From the IMG/VR virus record IMGVR_UViG_3300035701_000205, positions 1-29,047 of that record: 29,047 nucleotides of DNA; one strand, written 5' to 3'. Source of the DNA: a virus. Both the position numbers and the translations under genes were made by a program. The notes beneath the pieces were generated by a model. The model worked only from the letters and a program-made list of their open reading frames with translations, was not told the DNA's origin and made no database searches. Shown here one piece after another: positions 6,145-27,475 of this stretch. How positions within the stretch are numbered: the stretch's first letter is position 1; every line of letters starts with the position of its first letter.

Positions 6145-7272
6145 TTATCCTGCCTTTGCAACTGCCTGTTCTTCTTCCTCGGTTTCTTCTTTTGTGGCCA
6201 ACGGCAGCCGGACCTTAACCGGCAGGTCGAGCTCTTCTATTATTTTTAATATTCCTTGTGAATCGATAATTCCTTCTCGAATAATTTTGGATGAGATATG
6301 CATGGCTGCTATTATATGGCCGCAGGTCCGCAATCTGCCGCTGCGTCCGGTCTTGCAGATTTTTTGTAATGTTTTCACCCCATCGCCTGTAAGTTTTAGA
6401 CCGCCATATTCATAAAGTTGTCGGAGGTCATCTACCGTATAAAGCCCGCCGTCTTTGGTCGATGCCTTGGCGTCAAGGTCCAGCACTGCCATAAGCCGGG
6501 ATGTGAACTGGTCCAGGGATTCGTAACCTCTTCGCGTGGTCGGTTGCATAACGGTATCTAATAAATGTCTGTTACCTGCGAGGACCAGCGGGCATCTGGA
6601 TTTGACGACTATAATCTGTCGAAGTTGGTTGAGCTGCTTGATGGTCAAGCTCGAGGCTTCATCTAACATAATTATGATGTGTCGGTTCTGCAAGTTGTCG
6701 ATAAGCCGTCGCGTTACGCTGGCTAATGACCCGGATGAATCGATACCCAACTTGTGAGCAATCTCGGCGAACAGCATTGTCGAGGTCATTGCATCATCGA
6801 ATTCGACAAAGACGGTGTTTTTATTTGCTTCGGCATATTGTTTCAAACAGTAGCTTTTTCCGTGCCCACCATCCCCTACGATAATGCCTATTTTGCCCTC
6901 TTCGTTCTTATCGCTGAATGACTCCGTTTGGGTTATAAGCGTGCGGATTTTTATCGCAACCGAGGTTTCAATATACGGCAATTTTTTGACCCGCGTTTCG
7001 TGTCTCGAAACGGAATTTATCAGATTCACAACCTTATTGACAAGGTCGGTGAGATTGCCCTTATATTTGCCGGCGAGGAACTGGCTGATTTGCGCAGGGC
7101 TTACCCCGATCGCCTCCGCCGCTTTTGACTGGCTCCAGTTACGCTCTTTCAAAAAGGCCTGCAGAGACTCTGCTATTTTTTTCGCCTTCTGTTGGTTCAG
7201 GTCCATCGGAATCCTTTCTGTTATTATCTGGCTGTCCTTTTCCATCTCCTGCTGGATATTATTTTCATTCAT
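6145..7272 (-). CDS. MuB-like AAA+ ATPase, transposition target-selection protein
   Basis: The protein is 375 aa, somewhat longer than Mu B. Residues ~41-70 form a Cro-type helix-turn-helix (NWSQSKAAEAIGVSPAQISQ). The ATPase core has Walker A GDGGHGKS (133-140), Walker B IIIMLDEA (199-206) and a sensor strand LVLAGN (229-234). MuB coats target DNA as an ATP-dependent filament, delivers target to MuA and enforces target immunity. The ATG overlaps the end of the transposase gene by eight bases, so A and B are translationally coupled. The C-terminal ~30 residues are Glu-rich (KEETEEEEQAVAKAG) and look unstructured. Confidence 0.9.
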   Translation of the reverse strand: MNENNIQQEMEKDSQIITERIPMDLNQQKAKKIAESLQAFLKERNWSQSKAAEAIGVSPAQISQFLAGKYKGNLTDLVNKVVNLINSVSRHETRVKKLPYIETSVAIKIRTLITQTESFSDKNEEGKIGIIVGDGGHGKSYCLKQYAEANKNTVFVEFDDAMTSTMLFAEIAHKLGIDSSGSLASVTRRLIDNLQNRHIIIMLDEASSLTIKQLNQLRQIIVVKSRCPLVLAGNRHLLDTVMQPTTRRGYESLDQFTSRLMAVLDLDAKASTKDGGLYTVDDLRQLYEYGGLKLTGDGVKTLQKICKTGRSGRLRTCGHIIAAMHISSKIIREGIIDSQGILKIIEELDLPVKVRLPLATKEETEEEEQAVAKAG

Positions 7273-9130
7273 CGAGCAATCTCACCCCCTCAAATCGGTT
7301 TTTCGTTTTAAGAAGCGAAAAATCCAGGTTAAGTCCTTCTCTCATCGACTCCGCCCCTGCCGCCTTCCTGAGGAGCTTGACTACTTTTTGCCTTTCATGC
7401 TCCGCCACCTGGTCATCGAGAGGGGTCCTGACCGGCTTTAATATTTGCGGTCCTCTGCTTTCTGCCTCCTCTTCTCTGCCTTCTGCCTTCTGCCTTCTGC
7501 CTTTTTCAACTTCCTGCATCGCCCTTATCGTCAGGGTGGTCAGGTCCATATTCCGGGTCAGCTCGCTATTGCGGAAATCCTTTGCGACCCGCAACACCCT
7601 TCGTTTTTCCCGCATTGCATTTCGCAGGGATTCTTCCTTAATGGCCGTCCCGTAATTGATAAGTTGGTTCTGCTCTGCGATTGTAATCAGTTTGAATGTG
7701 GCCGCATCGTAGATATATGCCCTTCGAAGGTCATCAGGGTCATAGGACAATCTGACCTTCCTGCCCTGATGAATCAGGAGCTCAGCGTTATACTGACCGT
7801 AGTATATTCCCTTAAATTGCACACCGTTCTTGCCGACAATCAGTTCGCGGCTCCATATCCGCAATAGTAAATCCACGACCCCTGGAGCGAGCACCCGGTG
7901 GATTCGGCGATTCTGGAATACCTCTGCAGGGTTTTGCTCGAGCATATCTTTGGCGCTGTGAGAATTGGCGTTATAAACATCGACGTAGGATGCGAATAAT
8001 GACTCAAGTTTTTCAAAACTTATGGCATTGCGTATCGTGGCGGGGTCTTTAAGTTTCTCGACCAGGTCCTCCGGTTTTCGTTTGGTGTCCTTGCCGCAGT
8101 ATAAATCGAAGGTCGCCATGAATTGCGAATCGATTGTTGCGAATAATCTTTCGATTCGTTTGGCCTTTGCATTATATGGAATGGCGAATGATACGCCAAT
8201 ATCCATCATCGCGAATATTCCGGCCAGTATTTTCTCATCCAGATATCCCTTACCGAGTGCCTTCCTGGTCTGTTTGGTAGTACCGGTAATCAGCTTTTTC
8301 TCGTCCAGATATCCTTTACTGAATCTGGTCTGTCTGACCTGTTTGGTAACACCGGTAAATAGTTCGCTGTCGTAGTCCTTGCCGTTATCTATTTTGACCG
8401 ATTCGGGCGGCCCGAATTTTTCGATTGCCCGCTTCATCGATAAGAGTATTGTCGTCTGGTTCGGGATGATTGATAGATACCAGCCGACAATCATCCTGCT
8501 CTTCAAATCCTCCCAGACCGTCATCCACGGCCTGACCCATTCGTTCTGATATCGAATTACGCAGTTGAACTGGCTATGGTCTCCGACCCAGACCTGGTTC
8601 GGCTCGATGCTGTCGGGGTCAATTTCAATATATGGCGCGCATTTGTCCTCATAAGCCGCCAGTCCTTCGCGGTGCAGGACAAGGACCTTCATAGGAATCC
8701 GGTCCTTGACAATTCGGTACATCATGGCCAATTCCGGTATCTTCCAGCCGCGTTTCTGGGATTGGTTGATATAGTTGATATTGAGTAAGCAGGTTTTAAG
8801 CGGCAGTTGCTGCTGCGTAAGGTAGAGTGATTTGAAAAACTCGAATGCCTCTTCGCTTATGATTTCGTTCTCGAATTTGCCTCCGCCGCGTTTATCGACA
8901 AGTCCCAGGAGTCCCTGTTGATGATATTTTGCAAGCCATCGGTATAAAGTGGTTCTGGTTAATTCCTGATTACCGGCGACAAACAGGTCTATTGCATCGC
9001 TTTTTGTCGCTTCATTTTGTCTGTGGAATTGATTGAATTGCTGTATGATTCCTAATCGGCGGATTGCCTCATCTCTTTTGGATGCGGGAACATTGGCAAG
9101 CTCTTCGGTGTTTACAGGTTTTTTTATCAT
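7265..9130 (-). CDS. MuA-like DDE transposase
   Basis: The protein is 621 aa. The N-terminus (about 10-85) is a helix-turn-helix DNA-binding region (TLYRWLAKYHQQGLLGLVDK). The RNase H-like catalytic core carries D184 (WVGDHSQFN), D248 (KIDNGKDYD) and E327 (KAKRIERLF). A C-terminal beta-barrel and helical tail follow. It would bind the phage ends and carry out strand transfer for integration and replication, together with the MuB-like ATPase. The spacing from D248 to E327 is 79, because a segment of 22-23 residues is duplicated (259-280 and 282-302); without one copy it is 56, the MuA value. Residues ~542-560 (KGRRQKAEGREEEAE) are encoded by a TTCTGCC repeat tract. Upstream lies only repeat DNA, and the ribosome site is weak. 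Confidence 0.93.
   Translation of the reverse strand: MIKKPVNTEELANVPASKRDEAIRRLGIIQQFNQFHRQNEATKSDAIDLFVAGNQELTRTTLYRWLAKYHQQGLLGLVDKRGGGKFENEIISEEAFEFFKSLYLTQQQLPLKTCLLNINYINQSQKRGWKIPELAMMYRIVKDRIPMKVLVLHREGLAAYEDKCAPYIEIDPDSIEPNQVWVGDHSQFNCVIRYQNEWVRPWMTVWEDLKSRMIVGWYLSIIPNQTTILLSMKRAIEKFGPPESVKIDNGKDYDSELFTGVTKQVRQTRFSKGYLDEKKLITGTTKQTRKALGKGYLDEKILAGIFAMMDIGVSFAIPYNAKAKRIERLFATIDSQFMATFDLYCGKDTKRKPEDLVEKLKDPATIRNAISFEKLESLFASYVDVYNANSHSAKDMLEQNPAEVFQNRRIHRVLAPGVVDLLLRIWSRELIVGKNGVQFKGIYYGQYNAELLIHQGRKVRLSYDPDDLRRAYIYDAATFKLITIAEQNQLINYGTAIKEESLRNAMREKRRVLRVAKDFRNSELTRNMDLTTLTIRAMQEVEKGRRQKAEGREEEAESRGPQILKPVRTPLDDQVAEHERQKVVKLLRKAAGAESMREGLNLDFSLLKTKNRFEGVRLLDE
7452..7506. repeat. TTCTGCC tandem tract inside the transposase gene
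   Basis: The plus strand holds repeated TTCTGCC/CTCTGCC heptamers, with at least five units. On the coding (minus) strand this reads as AAGGCAGAAGGCAG-type repeats, giving KGRRQKAEGR-type peptide at transposase residues ~542-560. The same pattern occurs as a degenerate TTCTGTC tract at 11389-11425 in an intergenic gap. The tract is in frame and lies outside the catalytic core. Confidence 0.75.
8225..8356 (-). repeat. Tandem duplication within the transposase catalytic domain
   Basis: Two diverged copies of about 66 bases lie side by side at 8291-8356 and 8225-8287. They encode TGVTKQVRQTRFSKGYLDEK and TGTTKQTRKALGKGYLDEK. Both copies share the nucleotide stretches CCAGATATCC and CTGTTTGGTA on the plus strand, so this is duplication rather than convergence. 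The copies differ at many positions, so the event is not recent. Confidence 0.85.
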
Positions 9131-9144
9131 CTTTATTTTGTAAT

Positions 9145-9210
9145 AAAATCTGTGTTAATCCGTGTTAATCTGCCTGCCCGGTGTAGCTTTAGCGAAGTCG
9201 GGTGGTTAAA
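9145..9210. repeat. Host-type dispersed repeat filling the gap upstream of the transposase
   Basis: The gap between the Cys-rich 164-aa gene and the transposase start is almost entirely an AATCTGTGTTAATCCGTG element joined to a CTGCCTGCCCGG...GCGAAGTCGGG element. The same two families recur at 10464-10505, 10824-10860, 12486-12573, 12772-12848, 14185-14300 and 28371-28406. No promoter is obvious in it. Confidence 0.7.
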
Positions 9211-12845: not shown

Positions 12846-12848
12846 GTG
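12811..12848 (+). repeat. GTCAGTG-family repeat, running into the HerA-like start codon
   Basis: TCTGTGTTAGTCAGTGTTTT is followed by AGTCAGTGTGAGTCAGTG. The last GTG (12846-12848) is the only sensible start codon for the downstream gene. Related copies lie at 14231-14300 and 29007-29047, in each case in an intergenic gap of the rightward operon. Confidence 0.7.
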
Positions 12849-14183
12849 ATTACTAATCAGTTAAATCTCGGCAGTATTCAGATACCTATCAATGCGGCGA
12901 CTAAGACCTTCGCTATCCTGGCCAAGCGGGGCGCCGGCAAAACCTGGACGGCGGCGGTGATGGCCGAGGAGCTTTTCAAAAACGGCATTCCCTTCGTCGT
13001 TTTCGACCCGATTGATGTTTGGTGGGGTTTGCGTCTGACTGCAAACGGCAAGGATGCAGGCCTGCCGGTAGTTGTATTCGGGTTGGAGCACGCCGATATT
13101 CCTCTCGACAGGGACATGGGCAGGACAATCGCCCAGGCAATTGTCAGGGAGAACGTTTCCTGCGTTATTAATACCTTCGGGATGCCCAAAGTCGCCCAAC
13201 GTCATTTGATTGCCGAATTCGCTGAGGAACTTTTGAATATCAATAACACCCCTCGTCACGTCTTTATCGAGGAAGCGCACGAGTTCGTTCCTCAGCATGT
13301 ATTTGGCGGGCTTGGTAAGACCTTTAATTCGGTCAGCAATCTCGTAGTGATGGGCCGCAACAGGGGTATTGGCGTTACCTTGATTAATCAGCGGGCCGCC
13401 ACGATTAACAAGGATGTTCTCACCCAGCTCGATACTTTATTGGCCTTTCAAAATGTCAGTCCTCATGACCGCAAGGCACTCAAAGATTGGGTGGAATTTC
13501 ACGCGGCGGAAGGCGACTTTGAGAAGTTTATGGCATCTTTGCCGTCTTTACCGAAAGGTGAGGGCTGGATTTGGTCACCTGAATTTCTCGGTATCTTCGA
13601 GCGAATCAAAATTCGCAAACGCGAGACTTTCCATCCGGACCGCGAAAAAATCGGCGATAAGTTCACAATGCCGGAGTTTGGCCAGACCGATATTCAGGCC
13701 TTCATCGGCCGATTCGCCCGGTCTTTAGAGGATGGCAAAAAGAAAAAAGGTTCACCTGAAAAATCATCTGTTGCCGGCGTTCAGGAAGAGCTTAAACCAA
13801 AAGAAAATCCGGAGTTGCTCGCCTTTCGCAATGAATACGAATCTAAACTTATGCAGAAGGATATCGAGCTAAGGAAATTGAGGGAGATGCTCGAGCAAGT
13901 CCGCAGGATTGTCGATGGTTCGGGCGGTAATCAATCTCTCTCTGTACCTATTTCTGTAGGAAACAATGTTGAGGAATGGTTAAAAAAATTAGGTAATGGC
14001 GGCGCTTCTCGAATTTTCAAGTTCCTGGCAGAAAAATCAGGAATGAAATTCACCAAGTCCCAAATTGCTTTGGCGGTCCGGCTTCGGATATCCGGAAGTT
14101 TCAATACTTATTTATCTACCTTGAAAAGAACCAATCTTATTGTTAAGGATGGTAATTTTTTCAGTATAAACCCTGATTTATAA
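12846..14183 (+). CDS. HerA/FtsK-type ATPase with C-terminal winged helix
   Basis: The protein is 445 aa. It opens with LGSIQIPINAATKTFAILAK, the beta-strand lead of HerA/DUF87 ATPases. Walker A is KRGAGKT (27-33) and Walker B is HVFIEEAHEF (138-147). These are followed by a conserved GRNRGIGVTLINQR segment (170-183) holding the sensor Gln and candidate arginine finger. A coiled coil spans ~325-355. Residues ~375-445 form a winged helix (FTKSQIALAVRLRISGSFNT). Such hexameric ATPases pump or translocate DNA. In a phage already encoding a terminase its role is open: replication, DNA handling or defence. The GTG start lies in repeat DNA without a ribosome site, and no other in-frame start precedes the Walker A. 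Confidence 0.85.
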   Translation: MITNQLNLGSIQIPINAATKTFAILAKRGAGKTWTAAVMAEELFKNGIPFVVFDPIDVWWGLRLTANGKDAGLPVVVFGLEHADIPLDRDMGRTIAQAIVRENVSCVINTFGMPKVAQRHLIAEFAEELLNINNTPRHVFIEEAHEFVPQHVFGGLGKTFNSVSNLVVMGRNRGIGVTLINQRAATINKDVLTQLDTLLAFQNVSPHDRKALKDWVEFHAAEGDFEKFMASLPSLPKGEGWIWSPEFLGIFERIKIRKRETFHPDREKIGDKFTMPEFGQTDIQAFIGRFARSLEDGKKKKGSPEKSSVAGVQEELKPKENPELLAFRNEYESKLMQKDIELRKLREMLEQVRRIVDGSGGNQSLSVPISVGNNVEEWLKKLGNGGASRIFKFLAEKSGMKFTKSQIALAVRLRISGSFNTYLSTLKRTNLIVKDGNFFSINPDL

Positions 14184-15786: not shown

Positions 15787-16358
15787 TGGTATCGAGGCGA
15801 GTTCATAATTCGATTGAGAAACTTCCTTTCGCTTTGCGGGAGGCAATTACTCAAATGTTGGTGGACAATATCTGGCCAAATGATTTCAAGCCCGAGGCCG
15901 GATATAAAGGCACCCCGCGTTATATAGATATCGTCCTTTATTGCCTGCAAAAAGGTTTTGAAGTAAGCGATTCCGCTATTAGTCGTTGGTCAATTCGCCT
16001 GCGGGTCATATCTCGTATGAAAGAAGCCGGACTTATAGCACGCGATGTGATGAAGGACCTGACCGAGGAGAAGGCATCAGCCACTCAGAAGGCCGCCGCC
16101 GAGATGATTACCGCCCATATCGTCCAATTAGCGGCGGAAGAGGAATCGCTTTCGACCAAGCAGTTAAAGGAGGTTTCTCAGGCGGTCCGCGATTGCATGA
16201 ATGTCTCTATTACGGCGGACAAATATATCCGTGAGCAGCTCGCAAAGAAGATAAGGACCGCGACCGAATCGACAAAGGCCAAACTGACAAAGGCCGGCGT
16301 CAACAGGAAACTCATCCAGGAAATCATAGATGAACATTTAGGGGTCGTTAAAGCGTGA
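15786..16358 (+). CDS. Small terminase subunit-like protein (Mu gp27 / DUF3486)
   Basis: This 190-aa protein starts from the ATG at 15786, which overlaps the previous stop; an upstream TTG is possible. The N-terminus SRRVHNSIEKLPFALREAIT and the helix-turn-helix FEVSDSAISRWSIRLRVISR match the DUF3486 pattern (residues ~1-75). The rest is helical and oligomerisation-prone (EEKASATQKAAAEMITAHIV and following). In Mu-like phages this family precedes the large terminase and is taken to be the small subunit that recognises the packaging site near the left end. It overlaps the large terminase gene by four bases (GTGA). Confidence 0.8.
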   Translation: MVSRRVHNSIEKLPFALREAITQMLVDNIWPNDFKPEAGYKGTPRYIDIVLYCLQKGFEVSDSAISRWSIRLRVISRMKEAGLIARDVMKDLTEEKASATQKAAAEMITAHIVQLAAEEESLSTKQLKEVSQAVRDCMNVSITADKYIREQLAKKIRTATESTKAKLTKAGVNRKLIQEIIDEHLGVVKA

Positions 16359-17719
16359 TTCAAGATTTATTATCAAAGGATTATTTTCTGCCTTACCAGG
16401 TCGCCTGGATAGCGGATGATTCGCATTTTAAGCTCTGGGACAAATCCCGCCGCATCGGCGCTACTTATGCTGAATCATATCGTGCGGTCCGCAGACGTAA
16501 TTTGTCGGATGTTAGACGTGACTATTGGTTCAGCTCATCAGATGAATCTGCTGCCGTGGAATTTTCCTTATATTGTCAGCAATGGTGCAGGATTTTTGAG
16601 GCGGCGGTCAATATTCTTACTGAAGAATTGGTGGATGACCAGGGCTTTCGTTACAATAATTATGTCGTGGAATTCCCTAACGGCTCGCGCATCAATTCTA
16701 TGTCCTCCAATCCCCGCCGGTTTCGCAGCAAGGGCGGTGATGTTGGTCTCGATGAATTCGATTGGCACGATTCGCCGGGCGAGATGCTGGATGCTGCGAT
16801 GCCGGTTACCACGTGGGGCTATGATATCTCAATTCTTTCGACCCGTAATGCTGAGGGTTCTGAATTTGATAATCTCATAAAAACTGCCAGGCGGATTCGT
16901 TCCGGTGAATTAGTTCCGGCACGGGATAATGTTCTCCCTTGGTCGCTTCATGAGGTCCCGATTACCCTGGCCGTTGCGCAGGGATTGGCTGAAAAGATTT
17001 ACAAGCTCAATTATATCGACCTTGAAGCACGCAGGAAATTTCTGGCTGAATGTCGTGCTAAATGCCGCAATGAGGATGCCTACAATCGGGAATATATGTG
17101 CATCCCTTCGACTGCATTGACCTCGCTTATCCCTTACGATTTATATCAATCCTGCGAATCGGCTGATTGTCTCCAGCCGCTTATCCCTCATACAAAAGAA
17201 CGCCGCAATTATTATGCCGGTATGGATGTCGGCAGGGAAAAGGATCTGACGGTTATTTGGATTGATGAGCTGGTCGGGGATGTCTTAATTCCACGCAAGA
17301 TTGAGAAATTACATAAGACCCCTTATGCTGTCCAGTTGCAGATTGCAACGGATTTGCTTGCCAATCAGAACGTCCGCCGTTTCTGCGGCGATGCCACCGG
17401 CATAGGTGACATGCTGGTCGAGTCCTTGCAGGACCGGTTCGGCGATTACCGTGTCGAAAAGGTCAAATTTACTAATGAGGTCAAGGACCATTTGGCAAGC
17501 CAGATTCTTGGCCGGTTCCAGGATAAGCGTATTCGCGTCCCTACTGACAGGGACATTCGTGAAAGCTTCCATAGTGTCCGCAAAACTGTCACGGTCTCCG
17601 GCAATGTCCGTTATGATGCTGCCAGCACTGAGGCCGGTCACGCCGATGAGTTCTGGGCTGCCGCCTTGGCAAAAGAGGCGGCAATCACAAATGTCATCCC
17701 GGAGGTAATCCTGCTTTGA
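16355..17719 (+). CDS. Terminase large subunit (Mu gp28-like)
   Basis: The protein is 454 aa with a GTG start overlapping the previous stop. The ATPase half has PYQVAWIADDS, a Walker A-like DKSRRIGATYAES (~31-43) and Walker B DVGLDEFDWHDSPGEMLD (~129-146). The nuclease half has the RNase H-like acids at YYAGMDVGREKDLTVIW (Asp), FCGDATGIGDML (Asp) and AGHADEFWAAALA (Asp near the C-terminus). Together with the portal it drives DNA into the prohead and cuts the host DNA at the end of headful packaging. The gene leads into the portal with a four-base overlap. Confidence 0.9.
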   Translation: MIQDLLSKDYFLPYQVAWIADDSHFKLWDKSRRIGATYAESYRAVRRRNLSDVRRDYWFSSSDESAAVEFSLYCQQWCRIFEAAVNILTEELVDDQGFRYNNYVVEFPNGSRINSMSSNPRRFRSKGGDVGLDEFDWHDSPGEMLDAAMPVTTWGYDISILSTRNAEGSEFDNLIKTARRIRSGELVPARDNVLPWSLHEVPITLAVAQGLAEKIYKLNYIDLEARRKFLAECRAKCRNEDAYNREYMCIPSTALTSLIPYDLYQSCESADCLQPLIPHTKERRNYYAGMDVGREKDLTVIWIDELVGDVLIPRKIEKLHKTPYAVQLQIATDLLANQNVRRFCGDATGIGDMLVESLQDRFGDYRVEKVKFTNEVKDHLASQILGRFQDKRIRVPTDRDIRESFHSVRKTVTVSGNVRYDAASTEAGHADEFWAAALAKEAAITNVIPEVILL

Positions 17720-20079
17720 ATGAACAGGTTAATAGATTAAGTCCCGATGCCGCCTCGATGCTGCAAATTGCCGTTGATAAGCAAATCGAATCAGCAGGTA
17801 AGAGCATCGGTTTAAGCCAACTTGCCCACATCTGGCTGACCGGCGGCGATCTGACCGATTCTTCATTAAGTAAACCTACAAAGCCATATAAGCAGATTGA
17901 TTTGGTCTTTGCCTGCATTACTAAAATCATAATTACGATGCTGGGCCTGCCTTTGGTCATTTCCACGGTAGATGAAAAAATTATTGAGTCCGGTCCATTA
18001 TGGGAAGTGCTCTTTAAGAACCCTTTAATGACCTTCAAAATGTTTGTTACTAATTGGATTGGCCATTATGCATTAACTCGTGATGTTTTTATGATTTTTA
18101 CCGAAGGCGAGATTATTCGACCAACCCAATTTCTTGTCGTTTCAGGTATCCAAATGAATCCCCTCACGGACAAAGGTGGAAATCAAGGTAATCTATTCGG
18201 TTGGGAATTTAGCGGCGGAGGCCAATTGGAAAAATTTACGACACTTGAGGTCCATCAGACCCGCAATTTCAATCCTTACGATCGCTTTCACGGCATAGGC
18301 CCTGCAACTGCCGCTGAGCAGAGCATCAATTACACCTACGCCGCCGAGTTATTTAATACTGCCGCTCTCCAAAACGGCGCTGAACCGGGTGCGATATTAA
18401 CCTCACAAAACCGGCTGGAAAAAGAGCAGGTTGATTCTCTGCGTTCCCAATTTGATGCCCGTCACGCGGGCGCCGGCAGGGCCAAGCGGACGGCCATATT
18501 GACGGGTGGTATGGATATCAAAACCGTGGCAATGAACATGGTCGATATGGACGTCGCAAATCTGACGACTATGTCCGACAAAAAAATCTGTTCTGTCTTT
18601 GGCGTTCCGCCCGGCGTGGTCGGTCTTATTACCGAGGCCCAGTATTCTCACGGCCCCGCCCAGGAGGACTTTATTTTCAATACGATTATTCCGTTCGCCG
18701 AGCTTTTCGCAAGCGAGATTACCGATGGCGTTTTATCAAGGTTCGGGTCATCTGATATTCGCTCTCTGGAATTAAAAGAGAGCTGGTTCGGCAAATCTTC
18801 GCGGTTCAAAGATTTGTCTATGAACCGTTCCTTCCGTGATGCCCGCCAGAAGGCAGTCGCAAATAACCGGCAGGTCTTTGCCTGGTTCGATTATAGTCAG
18901 CATCCTGTTGTTCAGGAATCAAAAAGAAAACAGGCGGAGCAGGTGCTGAAGTTCACCGCAGCCGGCGTTACATTGAACCAGCTTATTGCGGCCCACGATT
19001 TGCCGTACGAGGAGACCACGTGGGGCGAGCATTGGTGGATTCCGATGGGTCAGGTCCCCGCCGATTTTACGCTCGAAGGCGGCCTCGAAGGAATGACGGG
19101 CCCTGTCCTTCCTGAAGGTGGAACTCCTGCCAAAGAGGAGCCAAAATCAATCAATAATTCTGTGCCTGCCCTGAGCGAAGTCGAAGGGTCCTCTGTGGCT
19201 AAAGAAACCGCTGCCGAACGTCTCTGGCGGAACTGGACCGCATCCTGGATAGGCATTGAAAGGGAATATCAAAATGCCCTGCGACTATTCTTTATTCGCC
19301 AGCAGCGAATCCTTATCTCAAAACTTAAAAATGCCTTCTCTGAACTTAAGATTCAATCTGTGGAATCCGTGAAATCCGTGGTTAAAGCCGATGCCGACCA
19401 GGTTATCGCCCGCGTGACCTTGGACCTCAAATCCGAGGATAATAAATTAGTCATTATTCATCGCAGTTTCTTCTATAAGGCAAGTGAACTTGGTGTTCGT
19501 CAGACCCTTGTCGAGACCCTGAATCTGGCCGGTTCGGAATTAAATATACGTGTTGAGCAAGTCAAATTAAAGCAGGTGATTGACAGGGCATTGATTCGGT
19601 CTTCTCAAAACTTAAAATCCGTCAATCACATTACGCAGAATATGGTTGCAAACCAATTGAAGGAAGGTCTTGAGACAGGCGAGGGTATAAATGAGCTTGA
19701 ATCGCGTGTTCGTCAGGTTTTAGGTTCCAATCGTGCGCGGGCATTACGCATCGCTCGAACGGAAACGGGTAGTGCTGTCAATTCTGGCAGGCATGCGGGA
19801 TTGGAGGCCTCCGGAGTGAAATTAAAAAGCTGGCTATCCGCCCGCGACAAGGCCGTTCGCGATAGTCATCGGCAAGCCGAGACGGATTATTCCGAAGGCA
19901 TCCCTTTAGAACAGCCATTTAAGGTTGGTTCGGCGACGTTGATGTATCCTACCGACCCTGCCGGCCCGCCTGAGGAAATTATCAATTGTCGATGCGTTGA
20001 GCTTGCCCTAATGCCGGGCAAGGAAGTCTCACAATTTTATACTTACGAAAAAATGAAAGGGGACAAAAATGTCCGTTAA
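17716..20079 (+). CDS. HK97-type portal protein fused to a C-terminal MuF-like domain
   Basis: The product is 787 aa, far longer than a lone portal (about 400-500 aa). The TTG start at 17716 overlaps the terminase stop and has GGAGG ten bases upstream. Residues ~50-470 are an HK97-type portal (IDLVFACITKIIITMLGLPL; AAEQSINYTYAAELFNTAAL; TMSDKKICSVFGVPPGVVGL). After a linker (~480-500), residues ~640-787 match the SPP1 gp7/MuF head morphogenesis domain (RTETGSAVNSGRHAG; SWLSARDKAVRDSHRQAE; EIINCRCVELAL). The fusion would carry MuF into the head with the portal. The linker VPALSEVEGSSV and the segment SVESVKSVVK (~548-557) are both encoded by dispersed repeats. Confidence 0.92.
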   Translation: MNEQVNRLSPDAASMLQIAVDKQIESAGKSIGLSQLAHIWLTGGDLTDSSLSKPTKPYKQIDLVFACITKIIITMLGLPLVISTVDEKIIESGPLWEVLFKNPLMTFKMFVTNWIGHYALTRDVFMIFTEGEIIRPTQFLVVSGIQMNPLTDKGGNQGNLFGWEFSGGGQLEKFTTLEVHQTRNFNPYDRFHGIGPATAAEQSINYTYAAELFNTAALQNGAEPGAILTSQNRLEKEQVDSLRSQFDARHAGAGRAKRTAILTGGMDIKTVAMNMVDMDVANLTTMSDKKICSVFGVPPGVVGLITEAQYSHGPAQEDFIFNTIIPFAELFASEITDGVLSRFGSSDIRSLELKESWFGKSSRFKDLSMNRSFRDARQKAVANNRQVFAWFDYSQHPVVQESKRKQAEQVLKFTAAGVTLNQLIAAHDLPYEETTWGEHWWIPMGQVPADFTLEGGLEGMTGPVLPEGGTPAKEEPKSINNSVPALSEVEGSSVAKETAAERLWRNWTASWIGIEREYQNALRLFFIRQQRILISKLKNAFSELKIQSVESVKSVVKADADQVIARVTLDLKSEDNKLVIIHRSFFYKASELGVRQTLVETLNLAGSELNIRVEQVKLKQVIDRALIRSSQNLKSVNHITQNMVANQLKEGLETGEGINELESRVRQVLGSNRARALRIARTETGSAVNSGRHAGLEASGVKLKSWLSARDKAVRDSHRQAETDYSEGIPLEQPFKVGSATLMYPTDPAGPPEEIINCRCVELALMPGKEVSQFYTYEKMKGDKNVR
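19160..19196 (+). repeat. CCCTGAGCGAAGTCGAAGGG element in frame in the portal gene
   Basis: TGTGCCTGCCCTGAGCGAAG is followed by TCGAAGGGTCCTCTGTG, a short partly palindromic element (CCCT...AGGG) found dispersed in many bacterial genomes. Read in this frame it gives VPALSEVEGSSV, located exactly in the linker between the portal and MuF-like domains. Confidence 0.8.
19355..19387 (+). repeat. AATCCGTG-family element in frame in the portal gene
   Basis: AATCTGTGGAATCCGTG followed by AAATCCGTGGTTAAAG is the same element that fills gaps at 10824-10860 and 28371-28406. Here it is translated as QSVESVKSVVK in the helical segment before the MuF-like domain, with no frameshift. Confidence 0.8.
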
Positions 20080-26188: not shown

Positions 26189-27475
26189 ATGATAATTGCG
26201 AATAAGAAAAACTCGGCCTTTGAGCTTGCATTTCCGATGGTGGACAGCACAACGCCTGCGAGTTTTAAGACGGGTTTATCCCCTGTTGATACCGCATATT
26301 ATAAAGATGGTGCGGGCGCCTGGACGACACTGGCGATAACCGATACCGCCGCAGAAATCGGCACTACCGGCATTTATGAGATAAGTCTTACCGCCGCTGA
26401 AATGAATCACGACTGGGTGAATATAAAATTCACGGCATCCGGTGCAGCGGACACTCTTATTACTTTCAAAATGTTCACAAATAATATTGATGATGTAGAT
26501 ACGATAGTAGATGCCATTAAAGCCAAAACCGACAATCTGCCTGCCGCCCCCGCCGATGATACGAGCATCGATTCTCAATTGGCCGCGATAGCGGGTTACA
26601 TTGATACCGAGGTCGCCGCTATCAAGGCCAAAACAGATTTGATTCCCGCCGATATAACAACCCAACTTGATACTAACCTCCCGGCGATTAAAACTAAGAC
26701 TGATTTAATCGGAGCGAGTGTAGCTCTTGAAACCGGCGGTAATGTAGTGGCGATAAAAGCAAAGACCGATACTCTGCCTGCCAATCCGGCCGATGATACG
26801 AGCATTGATTCTCAATTAGCCGCGATAGCGGGATATATTGATACCGAAGTGGCAACTATTAAGGCCAAGACGGATTTGATTCCCGCCGATATAACAGCAC
26901 AATTGGATACGAACATTCCGGCGATTAAAGCAAAGACCGATTTGATTGGAGCGAGCGTGGCCCTTGAATCCGGAGGTAACGTAGCGGCGATAAAAGCAAA
27001 AACCGACAATCTGCCTGCTGCCCCCGCCGACGACACGAGCATTGATTCTCAATTGGCCGCGATAGCGGGTTACATTGACACCGAGGTCGCCGCCATCAAG
27101 GCCAAGACAGATTTGATTCCCGCCGATATAACAACACAATTAGATACGAATGTTCCGGCGATTAAAGCAAAAACTGACTTGATTGGAGCGAGCGTGGCCC
27201 TTGAAACTGGCGGTAATGCAACGGCAATAAAAACAGTAACCGATAAGCTCGGAACTGCGGTGGAATTGGATGGGGCGGTATATCGCTTCACCACAAATGC
27301 CCTGGAAATGGCGCCTTCCGGCGGTGCATCTGTTGGCGCCATCGCCGATGCCGTCTGGGATGAGACTGCCGCCGAGCACGTGGCCGCCGGGACAACAGGC
27401 AAAAAACTAAACGATATATCCGGCGGGGCTCCTATAAACGTCCAGCACGATTCCACACATATTGTAAGGAATTAA
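26189..27475 (+). CDS. Repetitive tail-fibre-like protein with three 79-aa repeats
   Basis: The protein is 428 aa. Residues ~1-105 form a beta domain (FELAFPMVDSTTPASFKTG; YEISLTAAEMNHDWVNIKF). The shaft (~110-346) consists of three repeats of exactly 79 residues, each carrying IKAKTDNLPAAPADDTSIDS, then QLAAIAGYIDTEVAAIKAKT and DLIPADITTQLDTN. The C-terminus (~347-428) ends with a GASVGAIADAVWDETAAEH segment common in phage fibre tips. The repeated AIKAKTD helices suit a trimeric coiled shaft. The ATG follows the previous stop directly. Confidence 0.8.
   Translation: MIIANKKNSAFELAFPMVDSTTPASFKTGLSPVDTAYYKDGAGAWTTLAITDTAAEIGTTGIYEISLTAAEMNHDWVNIKFTASGAADTLITFKMFTNNIDDVDTIVDAIKAKTDNLPAAPADDTSIDSQLAAIAGYIDTEVAAIKAKTDLIPADITTQLDTNLPAIKTKTDLIGASVALETGGNVVAIKAKTDTLPANPADDTSIDSQLAAIAGYIDTEVATIKAKTDLIPADITAQLDTNIPAIKAKTDLIGASVALESGGNVAAIKAKTDNLPAAPADDTSIDSQLAAIAGYIDTEVAAIKAKTDLIPADITTQLDTNVPAIKAKTDLIGASVALETGGNATAIKTVTDKLGTAVELDGAVYRFTTNALEMAPSGGASVGAIADAVWDETAAEHVAAGTTGKKLNDISGGAPINVQHDSTHIVRN
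26516..27226 (+). repeat. Three tandem 237-bp repeats in the fibre gene
   Basis: Units begin at 26516, 26753 and 26990, each exactly 237 bases, and end at 27226. They are similar but not identical, with many third-position differences. This indicates in-frame duplication followed by divergence under selection for the protein. Confidence 0.9.

Follow-up and report, generated by a model that had tools for sequence, protein, structure and literature searches.

Results

A Mu A-type transposase in a Mu-like phage

The window (the whole 29,047-nt stretch of viral DNA that was analysed) encodes on its minus strand a DDE transposase of 621 aa (7265..9130), recognized by Pfam, PHROG and fold matches. 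We use W for the phage in the window and for its transposase. The Pfam domains are HTH_Tnp_Mu_2, rve, DDE_2 and Mu-transpos_C; rve and DDE_2 exceed their curated cut-offs, as do PF09039 (45 bits) and PF09299 (38 bits), which mark a Mu I-gamma DNA-binding domain and a Mu-type C-terminal domain. The protein also matches phrog_310 (E 6e-87), and D184, D248 and E327 align with the catalytic residues of homologues, as in an RNase H-like DDE core. The codons for D248 and E327, placed by this alignment, are at 8387..8389 and 8150..8152 on the minus strand. The next gene downstream, overlapping by 8 nt (6145..7272, minus strand), encodes a Mu B-like AAA ATPase with an N-terminal HTH (Pfam AAA_22 and HTH_3; phrog_296 "DNA transposition protein", E 1e-43). 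By its DDE core, its flanking domains, the adjacent MuB-type ATPase gene and its fold, the transposase is of the Mu A type. Small and large terminase, portal/head-morphogenesis, protease, capsid and head-tail adaptor genes are also present, and W is therefore a Mu-like phage. Homologues of the transposase are found mostly in genomes of Planctomycetota (Phycisphaerae) and in IMG/VR contigs.

Several other features of the window are recorded here. A 787-aa ORF (17716-20079) matches portal families in its N-terminal part and head-morphogenesis (MuF-like) families in its C-terminal part, an apparent fusion. A 445-aa ATPase (12846-14183) matches a terminase-annotated PHROG, the real terminase being separate (16355-17719). 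The ORF at 26189-27475 holds 3.1 copies of a 237-bp repeat (26519-27243, 84% matches) and has no PHROG match. Short repeats of the AATCCGTG / TTAGTCAGTG type recur at 9147, 12537, 12813, 14241, 19355, 28374 and 29008; they are mostly intergenic, and some are common to the contigs of relatives.

A tandem duplication between the second Asp and the Glu

Two copies of a 22-codon unit (LFTG...GYLDEKI), delimited by DNA self-comparison and shuffles, lie in frame between D248 and E327. Copy 1, LFTGVTKQVRQTRFSKGYLDEKK, has one extra codon (aa 257-279; 69 nt, 8294..8362, minus strand) and is 23 aa long, and copy 2, LITGTTKQTRKALGKGYLDEKI, is 22 aa long (aa 280-301; 66 nt, 8228..8293, minus strand). With the extra codon omitted, the copies are identical at 50 of 66 nt. 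The DNA repeat comprises 8225-8256 against 8291-8322 (84%, lag 66) and 8265-8304 against 8334-8373 (73%, lag 69), and none of 400 codon shuffles reached the observed self-match. The junction between the copies, DEKK-LITG, reads as DEKI joined to LFTG, which is what a head-to-tail duplication predicts. A 66-nt segment between the second Asp and the Glu is thus duplicated in tandem and in frame.

An earlier note on this DNA had described two related copies of about 22 residues at 8225-8356 (residues 259-302), and this description was accurate, the exact unit being slightly wider (8228-8362). The D248-E327 spacing is 79, and removal of 22-23 residues brings it to 56-57. The note had equated the one-copy spacing, 56, with that between D336 and E392 of Mu A; it is also the value found most often in homologues. 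The window is a metagenomic-type virus record, but an assembly artefact or a chance similarity is scarcely credible: the copies differ at 16 of 66 bases, the shuffles never matched the repeat, and a separate contig has an equal-sized insert in the same place, as described below.

The insertion in relatives

We compared D-E spacing in the 49 sequences that have all three catalytic residues: W, the IMG/VR locus L016 and 47 others. The spacing is 79 in W and 78 in L016, and it ranges from 41 to 73 in the other 47 (median and mode 56), with 53-63 in the nearest 20 of these. None of the 47 has the duplication. L016 is the nearest relative; its transposase is 90% identical to that of W, and its contig is syntenic with the window (89% DNA identity over 7.8 kb). 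It has a 22-aa insert at the site of W's, which is one codon longer, and a weaker lag-66 repeat whose self-match was reached by 2 of 400 shuffles. The next relative, L015 (IMGVR_UViG_3300031885_000054), is 79% identical and has one copy of the loop and a spacing of 54; synteny is otherwise common to all three phages. The two segments could in principle have been unrelated DNA or non-homologous parts of a normal loop, but the copies are related and close homologues are single-copy. Because W and L016 share the insert and L015 has a single copy, the duplication most likely had a single origin, in the ancestor from which W and L016 descend, and a single-copy ancestor of that enzyme would have had a D-E spacing of 56.

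Searches with L016, with L015 and with the alignment of all three sequences yielded no further close relatives. Three partly overlapping sets of genomes, from one phylum (392), one order (161) and one class (397), contained only more distant members of the family, and no such duplication. We also scanned IMG/VR for other tandem duplications of GY(hydrophobic)DE at similar spacing, with all four Gly codons. Such scans would miss L016, because its copy 1 has lost the motif. Of the five loci from the first two scans, four (L099-L102) proved on translation to be unrelated repeat proteins or frames, and the other (L103) gave only a weak match (E 0.007). None of the ORFs of L103-L107 was matched by BLAST at E 0.01. 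The only insertion-bearing genes known are those of W and L016. The L016 contig also carries a second transposase fragment (G005:C1:21258-21596), which is 58% identical to aa 425-539 and contains a single in-frame TGA.

Position of the loop in the fold

An AlphaFold2 model of the transposase was built from 27 sequences (mean pLDDT 73). Its best structural matches are TnsB (Z 21-23) and Mu A cores, with Z 20.0 and an rmsd of 4.0 over 267 residues against 1bcm_A, and a Foldseek E of 3e-21 against 4fcy_A. In the model, predicted strand 244-248 carries D248 and is followed by strand 312-316 and by helix 325-336, which carries E327. Between the two strands, pLDDT falls below 50 at aa 272-295; confidence is likewise low for the one-copy loop of L015 (261-274). 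The insert is probably surface-exposed, low pLDDT alone being no proof of exposure.

Mu A T347-K364 aligns by sequence with the duplicated loop (Mu A numbering is that of the 4fcy chain plus 76, which places D336 and K364 correctly). By this alignment, the duplicated loop corresponds to Mu A aa 350-360, one of four regions of the catalytic core that mutagenesis and natural alignments have identified as insertion-tolerant (PMC3362531). An insertion at R355 is tolerated, and relatively long natural indels, of 8-10 aa, have been reported for this Mu A subdomain (PMC3362531). The earlier note had called an insertion in the catalytic domain unusual. This holds only for its size, because spacing in the family varies from 41 to 73 and the matching Mu A loop is rich in indels.

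The transposase gene has a second indel site built from repeats. An array of a 7-bp unit (TCTGCCT) at 7454-7503 encodes a linker, GRRQKAEGREEEAESR, that is poorly predicted in the model, and the linker of L015 at this site, RRQETGDGEQKTGDRRQET, is repetitive too but differs from it.

Conserved outer halves and a divergent inner segment

Outside the insert, W and L016 differ with dS 0.576 and dN 0.045 (dN/dS 0.078), and dN/dS in the catalytic part is 0.065. If the insertion is shared, this strong purifying selection has acted wholly on insertion-bearing enzymes. The low dN/dS between two carriers argues that the enzyme survived, and we infer from these comparisons that transposition activity was retained after the duplication. 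The earlier note had drawn survival from the divergence of the copies; the conclusion stands on dN/dS, but the divergence argument is weak alone, because synonymous and nonsynonymous changes between the copies of W (4 at 13 sites and 8 at 44 sites, only 12 differences) are indistinguishable from neutral (p 0.28).

The note had also left open whether the insertion was tolerated, regulatory or inactivating. That the duplication inactivated the transposase, leaving a decaying gene, might be suspected since most pentapeptide insertions in domain II of Mu A abolish activity (PMC3362531). We nevertheless regard it as very improbable: the DDE residues are intact, the gene has no stop or frameshift, dN/dS is low between the two carriers, and Mu A 350-360 is among the tolerant loops. 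The variable loop and the dN/dS favor tolerance, and nothing that we found points to regulation.

The conserved and changing parts of the loop are sharply partitioned. Ten codons at the start of copy 1 (10/10 aa) and twelve at the end of copy 2 (11/12 aa) are conserved in L016, and these outer halves (21/22 aa, 61/66 nt identical) align as what is, by sequence, one normal loop. The inner "filler" (aa 267-289, 8264..8332, minus strand), made of the C-terminal half of copy 1 and the N-terminal half of copy 2, is drifting, as judged from the L016 comparison and the pLDDT of the model. Its 22 codons compared with L016 retain 5/22 aa and 27/66 nt, and a neutral clock would leave about 39/66 nt (about 60%) identical (p 0.0015). 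Amino acid differences between W and L016 affect 18 of 28 positions in the loop and 41 of 590 elsewhere (p 2e-13). The rate of change in the inner codons equals or exceeds that of neutral drift, and from these alignments they look like spacer.

Divergence of the filler beyond the neutral expectation points to unusually fast change in L016, hidden compensated indels or two separate insertions. In the last case, the loop would have been duplicated in the lineage of W alone, and that of L016 would have gained a different 22-aa insert at the same hot spot. The excess divergence fits such a history, as do the variable length of the loop across the family and the poor likeness of the two inner segments, whose gapped alignment is no better than shuffles (489/2000). 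However, two sister phages share the site, the length (22 aa, with one more codon in W) and the 66-nt lag, seen in 0 of 47 others, and the L016 filler still resembles L016's own loop (4/2000 shuffles), a relic of the duplication. We therefore consider two independent insertions unlikely. Reading the L016 filler as a frameshifted copy gave an unconvincing alignment.

Discussion

We think it probable that a single 66-nt tandem duplication in the ancestor of W and L016 enlarged an indel-tolerant loop of a working enzyme, and that the inner 22 residues have since been free spacer. One in-frame event, probably replication slippage, would have occurred after the split from L015, and would have doubled the loop between beta-4, which ends at D248, and beta-5 of the RNase H-fold catalytic domain. 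Because this loop tolerates indels, the active site should still form and the enzyme should still transpose. Selection would maintain the equivalent of a single loop, formed by the N-terminal half of copy 1 and the C-terminal half of copy 2, and the 22 residues that separate these halves would be free to change.

The longer loop could instead have been selected, perhaps for contacts with DNA, MuB or another subunit that tune target use or complex assembly. The motif TGxTKxxR...GYxDE is conserved among closer homologues and is present in both copies of W, which retain TGxTKQ and KGYLDEK, and certain insertions in Mu A loops increase activity (PMC3362531). However, L016 has lost the extra half-motifs (KGYLDEK became KDCIVKK and LFTGVTKQ became TGEIITKR), and the copies show no sign of constraint, so we find selection for a longer loop improbable. 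We give similarly little credence to a version in which the extra motif-bearing segment of W makes further contacts with DNA or MuB, and diversifying selection at this interface explains why the filler diverged so quickly between W and L016.

The closest well-studied system is transposase A of phage Mu (PDB 4fcy, 1bcm, 1bco). At about 20% identity, it shares with W the order of domains (HTH I-gamma, RNase H-like DDE core and Mu-type C-terminal domain), the catalytic triad, a neighboring MuB-like ATPase gene and an alignable loop after the second Asp. The D-E spacing is 79 rather than 56 because of the duplicated loop. In Mu A, loop 350-360, with its R355 pentapeptide site, tolerates added residues and is a natural insertion site in homologues (PMC3362531); there the additions are 5 engineered residues or natural indels, whereas W has a tandem duplication of 22-23 aa. 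The transposase of L015 comes from a syntenic sister phage but has the single loop. ISCth4/IS256, hAT, RAG1, Transib and P element transposases, like W, have extra sequence between the second Asp and the Glu of the RNase H-like domain (PMC7780238). Their insertions are folded helical domains (residues 261-325 in ISCth4) ahead of the Glu-bearing helix (PMC7780238). In contrast, the insert of W is predicted as about 22 poorly modelled residues between strands 244-248 and 312-316; inspection of aa 257-301 found no C/DxxH, and with pLDDT below 50 the insert does not belong with the alpha-helical insertion domains of the IS256, hAT and RAG1 kind.

The insertion is an ordinary indel, longer than usual and produced by tandem duplication, which is tolerated in a loop already known to be variable, and it changes no view of the mechanism of transposition. 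It provides a natural example, longer than the indels reported for the Mu A subdomain, of sequence that loop 350-360 accommodates without loss of the enzyme. A large natural insert of this kind therefore supports the use of Mu A loop 350-360 as a site for engineering.
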